Assembly (NCBI GenBank): GCA_016215705.1
Contig: JACRIR010000217.1
Location: forward strand, 1 to 23,836
Direction: 5' to 3'
Source: Candidatus Poribacteria bacterium
GTDB lineage: Bacteria; Abyssobacteria; SURF-5
Length of the DNA: 23,836 nt
The notes under the pieces are model-generated. The model saw nothing but the letters and a program-made list of their open reading frames with translations, did no database searches and was not told the DNA's origin. Positions within the stretch are counted from its first letter, which is position 1, and each line of letters begins with the position of its first letter. A program made the translations under genes and the position numbers. Positions 11,022-20,461 of the stretch are shown here, in pieces.

Positions 11022-13424
11022 TCAACCGAGCGCACGGCAGCCGGTAACACGCGCACTCTCATTGCCGGCAGAGTGCGCGCCGTTGCCATTGGGCGAGTTG
11101 GCAAGCCTGACCAGACCGTCGACATCCAGAATGAGGCCGACGCGTCCGTCGGGCATGATGGCGCCGCCCGAGATGCCGGGAATGCCCCGCATCGCTTCGC
11201 CAAGGGTCTTGATCACTATCTGTTGCTGACCCAGCAAGCCATCGACAAGCAGGCCCGCCTGCTGTCCGTCGTCTTCAATCACGACCACGAGACCTTTCGT
11301 CGGGTCTTGCTCTCCCCCATCGATGCCAAAGAGTTTGCTCAGACGGAACAAAGGGATAAGTTTGCCTCGTATGGAAAGCATCTCGCCCCTGGCAAGCACG
11401 GTTGAAAGATCGCTGCGCTCCGGCCTGACCGATCTGATGATCGACAGCGTCGGGATTATGTAGCGTTCCGGACCGACGCGAACCACCATGCCGTCGATGA
11501 TAGCCAGGGTCAGCGGCATTCGAATGATGAAGACGCTTCCTTTCCCCGTTTCGGATCGTATTTCGACTTGCCCGCGAAGCGCTTCTATGTTCCGCCTCAC
11601 TACGTCCATGCCGACACCGCGACCGGATATGTCGGTGACCACCTTGGCAGTGGAGAAGCCGGGCTCGAATATGAAGTTGAAAATGTCGCGTTCAGTCGGT
11701 GATTCGCCCTCTCGCGCCATGCCGCGCTCTATCGCCTTGGCGAGGATTTCATCGCGGTCAAGGCCGCGCCCGTCGTCTTGAATCTCTATGTAGATGTTGC
11801 CGCCCTTATGGAAAGCTCGCAGCTCGATGCGGCCAACGTCGCGCTTGCCCGCCTTGCGACGCTCTTCTATGCTCGCCTCGATTCCATGATCGACCGCGTT
11901 GCGAACCATGTGCACGAGCGGATCGCCAATCCTGTCAACCACCGTTTTGTCGAGCTCGGTGTCTTCGCCGAAAGTGACAAATTCAACCTGCTTGCCTGCT
12001 TTCTTCGCCAGATCGCGGACAAGGCGCGCCATCTTCTGGAACGTCGAGCGAATGGGCACCATGCGAAGCGAAGTCGCCATTTCCTGCAACTCGCGCGTTA
12101 TCTTATCCAATTGGCTCAGATGCCTGGCCAGTTGCGAGGAGACGGCGCCCTTGAGTTCGTCCGACTGGCTTACCATCGTTTCGGCAATGACCAATTCGCC
12201 TATTGTGTCCAGGAGCCGGTCGAAGCGTTCCGCATCGATCTTGACCATTTCCTTGAGGCTCGCTGCCTGTCGGGCCGTTTCACTCTTTTGCGCTCTCAAG
12301 GCGTGTGCGACGTCCTTGGCGGCTATGTCGCCTTCGCGCACCAACAGTTCGCCGAGTCTGCGGCCACCGGCCGTCCCTTGTTGTTTTTCAAGGGCGCTGT
12401 TCACCTTTTCCTGCGACGCAGCGCCGATCCGGACGAGAATCTCGCCAAGTTTCAATCCTTCGGTGGCGACGGGCGCACTTATTCTCTCAGGTTGGGAAAG
12501 GTCGCCGGACGCCGCAGCGCGGATGCGAGCCAGCAATTGGGGCAGGGAGTCGTCGGAGGCCAACGCTTCGCCTGTGGTGAGCGAATCGCGGAGTCTTCCT
12601 ACAAGCCGCCTTAGTGCATCGACGATATCAAAGACAACGTCCATTGCGCTGCCTCCGAGTGAGGTTTGTCCTTTTCGCGCCCGGTCAAGGAGACTCTCGG
12701 CCTCATGCGCAAGCGACCCGATATCGTCCAGCATCAAGAAGCCGGCTACTCCTTTGATCGTGTGAAACGCCCGGAATACTGCGTTGAGGCTATCCGTGTC
12801 TCCGGGTTCTGTTTCGAGAGTGAGCAGATTCATGTCGGCCGCTTCCAGATGTTCGAGTGCTTCCGACACAAAATCGCCAAGGAGCGAGGTGTCGCCCTCG
12901 AAGGATTTCGGTTTGGCAGCCTGTGCCTCTGACGCAGTCGCCGCGGAAGTCTTGTCCTTGTCTACTGCGGCACGGTCCTCGGATTCAGCGGGAGATACCG
13001 TGAGCTCAATCTGTTCGGGCCGGGAGGGCTGGGGGTGAAAGGTCCGGTTCGAGGTTTCCGGAATTGACACGCTTGTTTCTCCCGAAGAATCGGGCGTGCT
13101 TTGATGCGTTCCGGATGCTCCCATAAGATTGACCTCGCCCGGGGGCCTGCCATGGCAAATGATGTCCTGTATTGCCGATACTGTCCTGCCAACGGTCTCC
13201 AGAGACTTGTTGGCGTCAGGCGATTCGTCGAGGATGATGCTTTCAAGGGACCCGGCCGAGGCCGCCGATGCCGAGGCTATGTCCGAGTGGCCGCTCTCTT
13301 GCGCCCATTGCACGATTTCTTCGAGCCGCGTGTGAAGAGACGCGAGCGCCTGAAGGTCGGAAGATTCGGCAAGGACAAGCGCCTCGGAGAGTTCCTCGAT
13401 TCTTCTCTTGATTTCTTCGTTCAT
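11022..13424 (-). CDS. cheA: CheA histidine kinase with an MshEN-like insert
   Basis: An 800-residue CheA. Order: a helical N-terminal extension (about 1-90) and a Ser/Pro-rich linker to about 175, neither typical; P1 HPt (about 178-285) with H221 in FRAFHTIKGVAGFL; two 24-residue repeats (325-348, 356-379) like those of MshEN domains; P3 dimerisation (about 388-455); P4 ATPase with H-x-x-R-N-A-V-D-H at N509, DDGRGLD (550-556), FEPGFSTA (586-593) and GRGVGMD (601-607); and P5, the CheW-like domain (about 640-775). No normal P2 CheY-binding domain is recognisable; the MshEN-like part takes its place. CheA passes phosphate from H221 to CheY and CheB. The ATG at 13424 is chosen over the GTG at 13436, which touches the AAAGG site. 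It is the first gene of the leftward cluster. Confidence 0.97.
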   Translation of the reverse strand: MNEEIKRRIEELSEALVLAESSDLQALASLHTRLEEIVQWAQESGHSDIASASAASAGSLESIILDESPDANKSLETVGRTVSAIQDIICHGRPPGEVNLMGASGTHQSTPDSSGETSVSIPETSNRTFHPQPSRPEQIELTVSPAESEDRAAVDKDKTSAATASEAQAAKPKSFEGDTSLLGDFVSEALEHLEAADMNLLTLETEPGDTDSLNAVFRAFHTIKGVAGFLMLDDIGSLAHEAESLLDRARKGQTSLGGSAMDVVFDIVDALRRLVGRLRDSLTTGEALASDDSLPQLLARIRAAASGDLSQPERISAPVATEGLKLGEILVRIGAASQEKVNSALEKQQGTAGGRRLGELLVREGDIAAKDVAHALRAQKSETARQAASLKEMVKIDAERFDRLLDTIGELVIAETMVSQSDELKGAVSSQLARHLSQLDKITRELQEMATSLRMVPIRSTFQKMARLVRDLAKKAGKQVEFVTFGEDTELDKTVVDRIGDPLVHMVRNAVDHGIEASIEERRKAGKRDVGRIELRAFHKGGNIYIEIQDDGRGLDRDEILAKAIERGMAREGESPTERDIFNFIFEPGFSTAKVVTDISGRGVGMDVVRRNIEALRGQVEIRSETGKGSVFIIRMPLTLAIIDGMVVRVGPERYIIPTLSIIRSVRPERSDLSTVLARGEMLSIRGKLIPLFRLSKLFGIDGGEQDPTKGLVVVIEDDGQQAGLLVDGLLGQQQIVIKTLGEAMRGIPGISGGAIMPDGRVGLILDVDGLVRLANSPNGNGAHSAGNESARVTGCRALG

Positions 13425-13479
13425 CGTCGGTTTCACCTTTCGGCATCAGCTCAATCGTGCGAGCACATGAGACTCCGTG

Positions 13480-13605: not shown

Positions 13606-13661
13606 GCATCTTGTGGCTGCGTAAGGCATTGCCAATACCGTGGAAGGGTGGAACAAGACGC
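13606..13661 (+). repeat. Structured element, copy A
   Basis: The 5' stem GCATCTTGT (13606-13614) pairs with ACAAGACGC (13653-13661), one mismatch. Between them are GGCTGC (13615-13620), a small GGC-ATT-GCC hairpin, and the core TGGAAGGGTGGA (13641-13652). The sequence then continues TTTG. Strand is given by the direction in which the core reads TGGAAGGGTGGA. Confidence 0.6.
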
Positions 13662-13774
13662 TTTGTAAATCAGTTGTTTTGAGATTTCAGAAGATGTGCT
13701 TTCTTCACCGCCTTTTCATGTTCACTTGCGCATTCGCGCCTGCGAGTCCATTATTCCATGTGAGTCTTTTGTTC

Positions 13775-13861
13775 AAAAAAAGATGGGCAGAGGTCCGAGC
13801 AGTGCTGTTACGCCACCCTTCCAAAGCAGCCGTAGCACACCCGCCCGGGACTGCCCAAATA
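13775..13861 (-). ncRNA. Structured element, copy D; possible small RNA
   Basis: Read leftward, an outer stem GGGCAG...CTGCCC (13851-13856 with 13785-13790) encloses an inner stem, GTGCTACG (13831-13838) pairing with CGT-AAC-AGCAC around an AAC bulge. This holds GCTGCTT (13824-13830) directly followed by TGGAAGGGTGG (13813-13823). Seven T's (minus strand) follow the outer stem at 13775-13781, as in an intrinsic terminator. A weak promoter, CTGACG-N17-TATGAA (13868-13896), would start an RNA of about 87 bases. Function unknown. Confidence 0.35.
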
Positions 13862-13895
13862 ATCCGTTTCATACGGAATAGCTGCTGTTACGTCA

Positions 13896-13953
13896 GCACC
13901 TTGTAGCTGCTTATCGGCACGCGCCGACACAGTGGAAGAGTGGAACAAGATGC
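13896..13953 (+). repeat. Structured element, copy B
   Basis: The stem GCACCTTGT (13896-13904) pairs with ACAAGATGC (13945-13953), one mismatch. It encloses AGCTGC (13905-13910), the hairpin TCGGC-ACGC-GCCGA, and TGGAAGAGTGGA (13933-13944). Five T's follow directly (13954-13958), terminator-like. Confidence 0.6.
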
Positions 13954-13961
13954 TTTTTACG

Positions 13962-14018
13962 GCATCTCATAGCTGCTGTCGGCACGCGCCGATCCAGTGG
14001 AAGGGTGGAACAAGATGC
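13962..14018 (+). repeat. Structured element, copy C
   Basis: It starts 8 bases after copy B, in the same orientation. The stem GCATCT pairs with AGATGC (6 bp; the next three positions are mostly unpaired). AGCTGC is at 13971-13976, then the hairpin TCGGC-ACGC-GCCGA, then TGGAAGGGTGGA at 13998-14009. B and C are the most alike and may be a tandem duplication. Confidence 0.6.
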
Positions 14019-14346
14019 CTTGAGAAACTTTCTCCTCTTTTGTTTTGGCTCAGCTACTTATGCTTTCGTCTTCAACCTCCCATTATGTCTATGTTAATTA
14101 ATGCGCGTGTTTATCAATTGGGTGACAAGAAGCAATAACTGTGCCAAATCCTCTGACTTATTACACAAGTATTGATATAGCAATGACTTATAGCTGGGAG
14201 AGGATACGGAGAGATACCCTCAATCAGTGCGCAATTGTGCGCTTGATGTCCCCTATTTGAGCATTGGACAAAGGGCAACGGCCCCGCGCCAATTCGTCAA
14301 TTAGGGGATTGTTTCGACGGGGGTCTTTTCCGGCGTGGCAGGTAGG

Positions 14347-14461
14347 AAAAAAAAGCGGACCAGCATGCGGTGCGCTCGGTCCACCCTTCCACAAGCAGCT
14401 CCAAGGCACCCCATGGGTCCGCGTATGATGCTGCTGCAAACTCTTCTAAGGCCTTTACAAG
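14347..14461 (-). ncRNA. Candidate small RNA built on structured element copy E
   Basis: Read leftward: an extended -10 promoter, about 40 bases of leader, then a three-tier stem. GCGGACC pairs with GGTCCGC (14416-14422 with 14355-14361), GGTGC with GCACC (14406-14410 with 14369-14373), and CTTGG with CCGAG (14401-14405 with 14375-14379, one G-U pair). The inner loop is AGCTGC-TTG-TGGAAGGGTGGA. Eight T's follow the outer stem (14347-14354). Promoter, compact structure and T-tract together suggest an independent RNA of about 115 bases. A 60-codon frame also crosses it from an ATG at 14479, but that ATG overlaps the -10 box and has no ribosome site. Function unknown. Confidence 0.45.
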
Positions 14462-14467
14462 AAACGC

Positions 14468-14497
14468 ATTATACCACAAATCTTCCTTGCTTGGCCA
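14468..14497 (-). promoter_or_regulatory. Extended -10 promoter for the copy-E small RNA
   Basis: Read leftward: TGGCCA (14492-14497, 4 of 6 to the -35 consensus), 18 bases, then TATAAT (14468-14473) preceded by TGG, giving the extended -10 form TGnTATAAT. It would start transcription near 14461. Confidence 0.5.
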
Positions 14498-14549
14498 GTC
14501 AAATCAAGGCAGCAATGCCCGCAACTATCTATAATTATACTCCAAGACA

Positions 14550-14571
14550 GGTTACAGATAGGTTACAGATA
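14550..14571. repeat. Tandem 11-bp repeat GGTTACAGATA
   Basis: Two perfect copies, 14550-14560 and 14561-14571, followed by a third degraded unit (GGCTGGAAATA). The 11-base period is one helical turn, as in binding sites for regulators that contact one DNA face. They lie just upstream of the small-RNA promoter (read leftward) and downstream of the regulator's terminator. Confidence 0.6.
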
Positions 14572-14656
14572 GGCTGGAAATACATGAAATTTTGCATGTG
14601 GAAGTTGAAGCGAAAGTCTTCACGAACGAAGTCAAGGAGGGCCGGGCGAGCTTAGC

Positions 14657-14709
14657 AAGAAAAAGCGCGGCGCTTCCTGCCGCTTCATGGAGGGTGGAAG
14701 AAGCGCCGC
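14657..14709 (-). terminator. Intrinsic terminator of the two-component operon (also structured element, sixth copy)
   Basis: A perfect 10-bp stem, GCGGCGCTTC (14667-14676) with GAAGCGCCGC (14700-14709), separated by 23 bases. On the minus strand it is followed by GC-TTTTT-C-TT (14657-14664), a typical rho-independent terminator, about 130 bases past the regulator's stop. The plus-strand loop contains CTGC then TGGAGGGTGGAA (14688-14699), the same core order as the other structured elements. Confidence 0.65.
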
Positions 14710-14840: not shown

Positions 14841-15494
14841 TCAGGGTTCGAGGGTGGTAAGGCCCTCGCGAACCGCGTACTTGACCAAGTCGGCCACACT
14901 GTGAATATTCAGTTTCTCCATAATGTGTTGACGATGTGTTTCGACCGTCTTTACACTTACATTGAGATTAGAGGCCATTTCCTTTGTGCCCAGACCTTCG
15001 GCCAAGAGTTGAAGCACTTCGCGTTCCCTCGCGGTCAGAACGGAGAATGCCGAGGTTCCGGACCCGGGAGACTGGCGCACATAGTGATCGACTACGTCGC
15101 CGGCTATTTGGGGGGAGAGGTAGATTTGACCTGAGATGACCGCGCGAATGGCTCGAACAAGTTCTTCGAGAGCGCATTCTTTCAAGAGGTAGCCCGATGC
15201 GCCGGCCTTGAGCATTTCGGCCACAAACCGCCTGTCGGAATGCATGGATAGCGCAATTACCTTGACGCCGGTCGTTTCAGTGGCGATTTTGCGAGTGGTC
15301 TCGATACCGTTCAAACCCGGCATGGCGACGTCCATGATGACGATATCCGGCCGAAGGTCGAGGGCCAATTGAAAAGCTGTGCGTCCGTCTCCCGCTTCGG
15401 CGACGACATTGATATCGGGCTCTTTTTCGAGCAGGGCCTTCAGGCCTTCCCGCATGATGCGGTGGTCGTCCGCCAGGAGGACTCTCAGGTTCAT
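14841..15494 (-). CDS. NarL/FixJ-family response regulator
   Basis: A 217-residue regulator. The receiver (about 1-120) has D9/D10 (LLADDHRIMREGL), acceptor D55 (VIMDVAMPG), S83 and K105 (YLLKEC). A linker (about 125-148) leads to a LuxR-type helix-turn-helix (about 151-212) with LTAREREVLQLLAEGLGTKE and the recognition helix VSVKTVETHRQHIMEKL. It should bind DNA as a dimer after phosphorylation by the kinase encoded directly upstream. Its ATG overlaps the kinase stop as ATGA, so the pair is translationally coupled. Its targets are unknown; the structured-repeat region and che operon just downstream are possible but unproven. Confidence 0.95.
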   Translation of the reverse strand: MNLRVLLADDHRIMREGLKALLEKEPDINVVAEAGDGRTAFQLALDLRPDIVIMDVAMPGLNGIETTRKIATETTGVKVIALSMHSDRRFVAEMLKAGASGYLLKECALEELVRAIRAVISGQIYLSPQIAGDVVDHYVRQSPGSGTSAFSVLTAREREVLQLLAEGLGTKEMASNLNVSVKTVETHRQHIMEKLNIHSVADLVKYAVREGLTTLEP

Positions 15495-19916: not shown

Positions 19917-19972
19917 GTAAATTGCTTCCGCGGAAGTCTTACCTGATTGCGAACCATAGCTGCCCAAGGGGC

Positions 19973-20000
19973 GACTTGTGGCGTGCATACCGCACAAGTC
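19973..20000 (+). promoter_or_regulatory. Leader hairpin before the four-helix-bundle gene
   Basis: GACTTGTG and CACAAGTC, perfect 8-bp arms around a 12-base loop, in the expected 5' untranslated leader and 29 bases before the ATG. It could be an RNA hairpin or a dyad protein-binding site. Confidence 0.4.
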
Positions 20001-20029
20001 AACCAAGAGATAGGATCGAAAGGAACAGA

Positions 20030-20461
20030 ATGGGTACCCTGCAACAATTCGAGGAGATTGAAGCCTGGCAGAAGGCGCGAGAGTTGACACGCGCAATCTA
20101 TGAATGCTCAAAATCAGGTGAATTCGAAAGAGACTATGGACTAAGGGATCAGATGCGGCGGGCTGCCGTGTCGAGCATGTCCAACATTGTAGAGGGCTTT
20201 GAACGTCGTGGGAAAGGCGAATTTCTGCAGTTTCTCTCAATAGCCAGAGGTTCGGCCGCCGAGGTCGCATCTCATCTTTACGTGGCTCTGGATCAGGGTT
20301 ACCTTTCCGAAGCGCAATTTAAAGAACTCCACGAACTCACCCGTTCCACGATCAATCTTGTCAACGGATTCATAAGCTATCTGAGGAGTTCCCCGTTTCA
20401 AGGCGAAAAATACAAAATCGGTAAACCATTATGCCGCAAATCACCCGACTCTGAACCGTGA
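20030..20461 (+). CDS. Four-helix-bundle protein (23S rRNA intervening-sequence protein family)
   Basis: A 143-residue protein of the S23/IVP four-helix-bundle family. It opens with the typical FEEIEAWQKARELTRAIYE (7-25). RDYGLRDQMRRAAVSSMSNIVEGFERRGKGEF follows (about 34-65), including the family's R-R-A-x-x-S-x-x-x-N-I-x-E-G core. Two further helices are rich in Ala and Leu (AAEVASHLYVALDQGYLSEAQF; ELTRSTINLVNGFISYL). The family is found in intervening sequences of 23S rRNA genes and as free-standing genes; its function is unknown. The ATG at 20030 has AAAGGA 6 bases upstream. Unlike its left-hand neighbours it is on the plus strand, with its own promoter, and is flanked by inverted AAACCGTCAAAC repeats, which may mean it moves as a unit. 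Confidence 0.9.
   Translation: MGTLQQFEEIEAWQKARELTRAIYECSKSGEFERDYGLRDQMRRAAVSSMSNIVEGFERRGKGEFLQFLSIARGSAAEVASHLYVALDQGYLSEAQFKELHELTRSTINLVNGFISYLRSSPFQGEKYKIGKPLCRKSPDSEP

Follow-up and report, generated by a model that had tools for sequence, protein, structure and literature searches.

A six-copy stem-loop family ahead of a chemotaxis operon in a Candidatus Poribacteria genome: a possible regulatory RNA locus with complementary loops

Why would a single intergenic gap hold six copies of one hairpin, in both orientations, with a core that is conserved while the stems drift? This question is raised by contig JACRIR010000217.1 of a Candidatus Poribacteria bacterium (assembly GCA_016215705.1; GTDB lineage Bacteria; Abyssobacteria; SURF-5), here analysed as a window that comprises the whole stretch of 23,836 nucleotides. 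The gap measures 1404 bases and separates a LuxR-type response-regulator gene from a cheA-type gene. All six stem-loops that a first-pass annotation, made from the sequence alone, had reported between 13606 and 14709 were found; we call them e1 to e6 (Table 1). They follow a common plan, consisting of a stem, RGCTGC, an optional small hairpin, TGGAAGGGTGGA and the stem again. Among them, e1, e3 and e4 form a set of close duplicates whose stems are similar, too. A coding repeat was considered as their origin and ruled out, since e3 and e4 differ by one base in the spacing of their two blocks, so that the frame is not kept, and a deletion has taken one base from the core of e6; the small open reading frames in the gap have no Pfam match. 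We show here that the six stem-loops are genuine structured elements and that they fit best as minus-strand RNA. With a probability of roughly 0.4, we propose that they make up a minus-strand regulatory RNA locus, in which non-coding RNAs and leader hairpins would interact via complementary loops in the manner of an antisense-controlled attenuator. The locus is a prediction from a single genome.

The structure of the elements is seen in the way their stems change. RNAalifold, run on the alignment of the six elements, returned the expected stem. In a count on the alignment, 78.8% of the cells in stem pairs are paired compared to 61.7% in shuffles. Covariation of the stems, which the first-pass annotation had named as the check to be made, is present: the score is 0.430 versus 0.163 in shuffles, none of 500 shuffles scored as high, and the signal collapses when the pairing partner is slid by one to three columns. 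Counted on the alignment, six of the nine stem pairs have changed on both sides. As the stems of e1, e3 and e4 are so alike, the number of independent stems behind the covariation is about four, not six. Each stem also beats most random placements in the gap, the fractions of placements at least as good ranging from 0.00025 to 0.043; the highest value belongs to e2, whose inner stem is the weakest. For the e5 hairpin the folding z is -3.27. The T-runs announced behind three elements are there as well (T8 after e5 and T7 after e2 on the minus strand, T5 after e3 on the plus strand), and a T5 tail also follows e6, on the strand opposite its G-rich core and thus on the minus strand. The idea of a structured RNA or terminator family is supported by this covariation and by the terminator-type hairpins with T-runs, but its companion, that the G-rich sequence is the sense of every copy, is not.

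That G-rich reading would distribute the copies over both strands, whereas stem wobbles, promoters and flanking genes all indicate the minus strand. The inner stems of e1, e3, e4 and e5 contain five non-Watson-Crick pairs, all at different places, and all five are G-U on the minus strand and A-C on the plus strand; the chance of five wobbles lying in one direction is 1 in 32. Both genes flanking the gap are on the minus strand, and on the plus strand of the gap no promoter was found above chance in a shuffle comparison. Several points weigh against this assignment: the bias comes from five pairs, the plus strand gives e4 a slightly better fold and it also carries the T5 tail of e3. The wobbles also bear on the view that the elements are palindromes acting as duplex or cruciform DNA, be it as a mobile or recombination site or as a double-stranded site for a protein. 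Copies in both orientations and their dyad symmetry are in line with such a view, but it would leave the bias towards one RNA strand without a reason, and copies were found neither elsewhere in the genome nor in phages or plasmids. Furthermore, the ends of the elements are variable and the centre is conserved, while the ends of miniature inverted-repeat transposable elements (MITE) or of attC sites show the opposite pattern. We regard a role at the DNA level as very improbable.

Read on the minus strand, the elements carry two kinds of loop, a G-type with RGCUGC ... UGGAAGGGUGGA in e5 and e2 and a C-type with UCCACCCUUCCA ... GCAGCU in e6, e4, e3 and e1. The two kinds are complementary over 11-13 bases and again over a second block, GCUGC/GCAGC, and the duplex energies, calculated for the loop sequences alone, amount to -27 to -33 kcal/mol. 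Two partners are imperfect: there is one bulge in the pairing of e6 and one G-U in that of e3. Folded as isolated hairpins, the C-rich loops of e4, e3, e1 and e6 are 0.59-0.96 unpaired; in the predicted transcripts the values are 0.56 for the e1 loop and 0.99 for the e3 loop. The G-rich loops are open to about one half and expose their GGA. The first-pass annotation had seen in this motif a possible site for a CsrA-type protein, and a protein-binding reading can be built on it, in which the G-type core would be the site of CsrA or of another RNA-binding protein and the hairpins would serve as a sponge or as leader operators. The genome indeed encodes CsrA, and the GGA of e5 sits in a hexaloop on a stem. 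However, sponge RNAs carry many sites per transcript, and on the favoured strand e5 and e2 are the only G-type elements; four of the six minus-strand cores have no GGA at all. As described in PMC4005645, a high-affinity CsrA site is a stem that carries an A(N)GGAX hexaloop, while the G-type loops read GUGGAA and GGUGGA and thus lack the A of A(N)GGA. Motility is under CsrA control elsewhere (PMC4894983). Repeated hairpins with GGA in their loops recall the Csr/Rsm sponge RNAs, which are marked by several hairpin loops per RNA with A(N)GGA (motif as defined in PMC4005645); here, no A(N)GGA is found, G-type loops are few per transcript and complementary C-type loops are present. Judged by these loop sequences, the CsrA reading is weak, and protein-binding hairpins of any kind seem improbable.

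How complementary loops might be put to use can be considered along two predicted transcripts. The candidate extended -10 promoter is the best such site in the gap and scores above all 40 shuffles; from it, a small RNA that ends at the e5 terminator is predicted. The genome encodes RpoN, and the predicted transcript from the sigma-54 type site would reach the e2 terminator. In the RNA locus that we favour, the hairpins would be one paralogous family of two complementary kinds. The G-type loop would be presented by the e5 RNA of about 117 nucleotides and by the e2 terminator, and the C-type loops by the 3' end of the response-regulator transcript, by the RNA from the sigma-54 site and by the stretch upstream of cheA. 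The core would be conserved while the stems drift because it is the proposed pairing interface. In the most likely mode of action, the e2 terminator would face competition from pairing between the e4 loop and e2, and the e5 RNA might occupy the C-type loops, as if blocking them, and so restore termination ahead of cheA. That these RNAs are transcribed, that they pair in the cell and in which direction control would run is inferred, not observed. In computed folds of the predicted sigma-54 RNA at 37 °C, the probability of the e2 terminator is 0.50 in the free RNA and 0.99 with the C-rich loops blocked, and scrambling of the C loops abolishes the competition with the e2 terminator in 60/60 cases.

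A number of observations speak against such a switch. It was computed by equilibrium folding, and at 10-20 °C the e2 terminator forms with a probability of 0.99-1.00 in the free RNA already, so that the switch is gone. Of the loops, that of e4 alone has an effect on the computed result, which depends on the assumed start and shifts strongly when the 5' leader is removed. Dimer folding of intact hairpins brings little gain; hence, opening of the hairpins or an RNA chaperone would be needed. Finally, copies in inverse orientation are complementary even without any selection for pairing. What speaks for use is thus not complementarity, which inverse copying brings by itself, but the fact that core and strand-specific stems have been conserved together. 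The switch is a proposal, less firm than the strand preference and the complementarity of the loops.

Inverse copying is also the starting point of a rival account, in which a long gap accumulated copies, in both orientations, of an old terminator-type hairpin, and these were kept mainly as terminators or debris; their loops would be partnerless, and the core would have been kept by recency or gene conversion. It is in line with this account that e1, e3 and e4 look like recent duplicates, that e5, e2 and e6 are plain terminators by sequence and that the genome holds no copies elsewhere. The stems of e2, e5 and e6, however, have fully diverged and still pair, while the 12-base core and the second block were kept. 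Recency would preserve stems as well as loops, which argues against it as the cause. We consider duplicated terminators somewhat unlikely, albeit the likeliest of the alternatives.

The confinement of the family to one gap was addressed by several searches. Across the 5.47 Mb genome there are exactly three copies of the 12-base core TGGAAGGGTGGA, and all three lie in this gap. A looser two-block pattern finds five copies in the gap and one other site in this genome, and in 59 other genomes it finds about as many sites as a reversed control. A covariance model built from the six elements, e6 being part of the training set, recovers those six at E-values of 8e-9 to 7.5e-7. With the 150 best first-look candidates per genome scored, it gave no further match here and, in the two other genomes of the same phylum, no convincing one; weak matches in one of the latter (E 0.2-6.5) were set aside. 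In a run over 386 genomes only this genome matched, under stricter filters that recovered 4/6 of the elements. Pattern relatives on viral contigs (91 stretches) and genome contigs (92) were taken as chance: the 80 stretches of each set that were rescored with the model are core-like only, mostly without proper stems and scattered over taxa, and the best reached 29.7 bits (a Bacteroidales contig), compared to 40-47 bits for the six elements. A distant DNA search in phages and plasmids found no relatives, and no family of Rfam (release 15) reached its gathering threshold. The first-pass annotation had recognised no known riboswitch or ribozyme and had recommended the comparison with Rfam and the search of genome and relatives; the outcome is no known family and, in the genomes searched, no convincing copies beyond the gap. 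Dispersed palindromic repeats, such as repetitive extragenic palindromic (REP) sequences or MITE, are marked by many dispersed intergenic copies, and here there are six in one gap. The genome has 13 sites for CCACCCTTCC, four of them in the gap, versus seven for the reversed control, and because the other sites show no pattern near start codons, we propose no distant targets.

Table 1. Predicted features between the response-regulator and cheA-type genes, in minus-strand reading order (positions in the window)
Feature	Position	Strand	Strand of G-rich core	Description
Response-regulator gene, LuxR-type	14841-15494	minus		Pfam Response_reg and GerE
e6	14667-14709	minus	plus	terminator-type hairpin at end of response-regulator gene; C-rich loop UCCACCC-UCCA, then T5
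Candidate promoter, pho-box-like	14551-14568	minus		exact tandem CTGTAAC repeat CTGTAACctatCTGTAAC, 4-base spacer
Extended -10 promoter (candidate)	14468-14497	minus		TGGCCA-18-TATAAT with TG; -10 at 14473; start near 14461
Predicted small RNA, ~117 nucleotides	14345-14461	minus		from extended -10 promoter to e5 terminator (T8)
e5	14369-14410	minus	minus	G-type hairpin, GUGGAA hexaloop, within long terminator stem 14350-14424
Sigma-54 type site, exact	14131-14146	minus		TGGCACAGTTATTGCT; start near 14120
e4	13961-14019	minus	plus	stem paired throughout, with two G-U; loop C-rich, UCCACCCUUCCA, plus GCAGCU
e3	13895-13954	minus	plus	stem paired throughout, with one G-U; loop C-rich, UCCACUCUUCCA, plus GCAGCU
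e2	13802-13838	minus	minus	G-type hairpin in terminator 13780-13857, then T7; between sigma-54 site and cheA
e1	13606-13661	minus	plus	stem paired throughout, with one G-U; loop C-rich; lies upstream of cheA
cheA-type gene	11022-13436	minus		named from sequence and che neighbours

Further sites lie among these features. A TATAAT (14539-14534, minus strand) follows the CTGTAAC repeat at 11 bases, which is the layout of a pho box; pho-box-like sites with three or fewer mismatches arise by chance in half of the shuffles, while the CTGTAAC pair found here is exact. The sigma-54 site is preceded, at a distance of about 90 bases, by a repeat, GTGCGCAATTGTGCGC (14222-14245), possibly a binding site for an enhancer-binding protein. 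Just upstream of e2, TGACGTAACAGCA (13883-13895, minus strand) agrees in 12/13 bases with TGGCGTAACAGCA, the 3' arm of the stem in e2, and may be a competitor for the 5' arm of e2 or a chance match. Neither of the two other genomes of the phylum has a match to the CheA-type protein at E<=1e-60; acquisition of the che cluster here or its loss there may be the reason. The same contig encodes a protein of the Pfam family 23S_rRNA_IVP (four-helix, 23S intervening-sequence) at 19922-20461 (plus strand).

Known systems offer partial parallels, in behaviour, to the proposed RNA locus, which we assign to none of them. The closest are the antisense RNA transcription attenuators of the pT181 type (Novick et al., 1989, as described in PMC4878617). 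There, a leader holds a terminator and a competing fold, and an RNA binds the leader hairpin through loops and brings about termination. A candidate regulator complementary to the loop of a leader hairpin is found here as well, by sequence, in the e5 loop and the loops of e4, e3 and e1. However, the pT181 antisense RNA is made, in the same account, from the strand opposite its target, whereas the e5 RNA and the leader would come from different places on the same strand, as inverted paralogues; moreover, one gap would hold several targets, and the genes behind it are chromosomal chemotaxis genes. Because the opposite-strand feature is missing, the locus may work like a pT181 attenuator but is not filed as a member. 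In Helicobacter pylori, the small RNA RepG recognises, by base pairing, a G- or C-rich run in the tlpB leader; tlpB encodes a chemotaxis receptor (PMC8295292). No sequence relation is claimed; the small RNA proposed here would carry a G-rich loop in a terminator hairpin, and its targets would be the neighbouring hairpins. CjNC1 and CjNC4 of Campylobacter are paralogous small RNAs predicted to act on the 5' untranslated regions of sigma-54-dependent flagellar genes (PMC4626219), but these pair with separate genes, while here regulator and targets would share one gap and one origin.

The complete history would run from one ancestral hairpin, copied by duplication in both orientations, to a small RNA and its own targets, whose complementary loops control termination before the chemotaxis operon; we hold it to be unlikely as a whole. 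If the pairing is real, the inverse copying of a terminator hairpin with its loop kept would be a simple route to a new small RNA plus targets. What would be new is that regulator and target are inverted paralogues in one gap. If true, a whole chemotaxis operon would be under RNA control in a barely sampled phylum.
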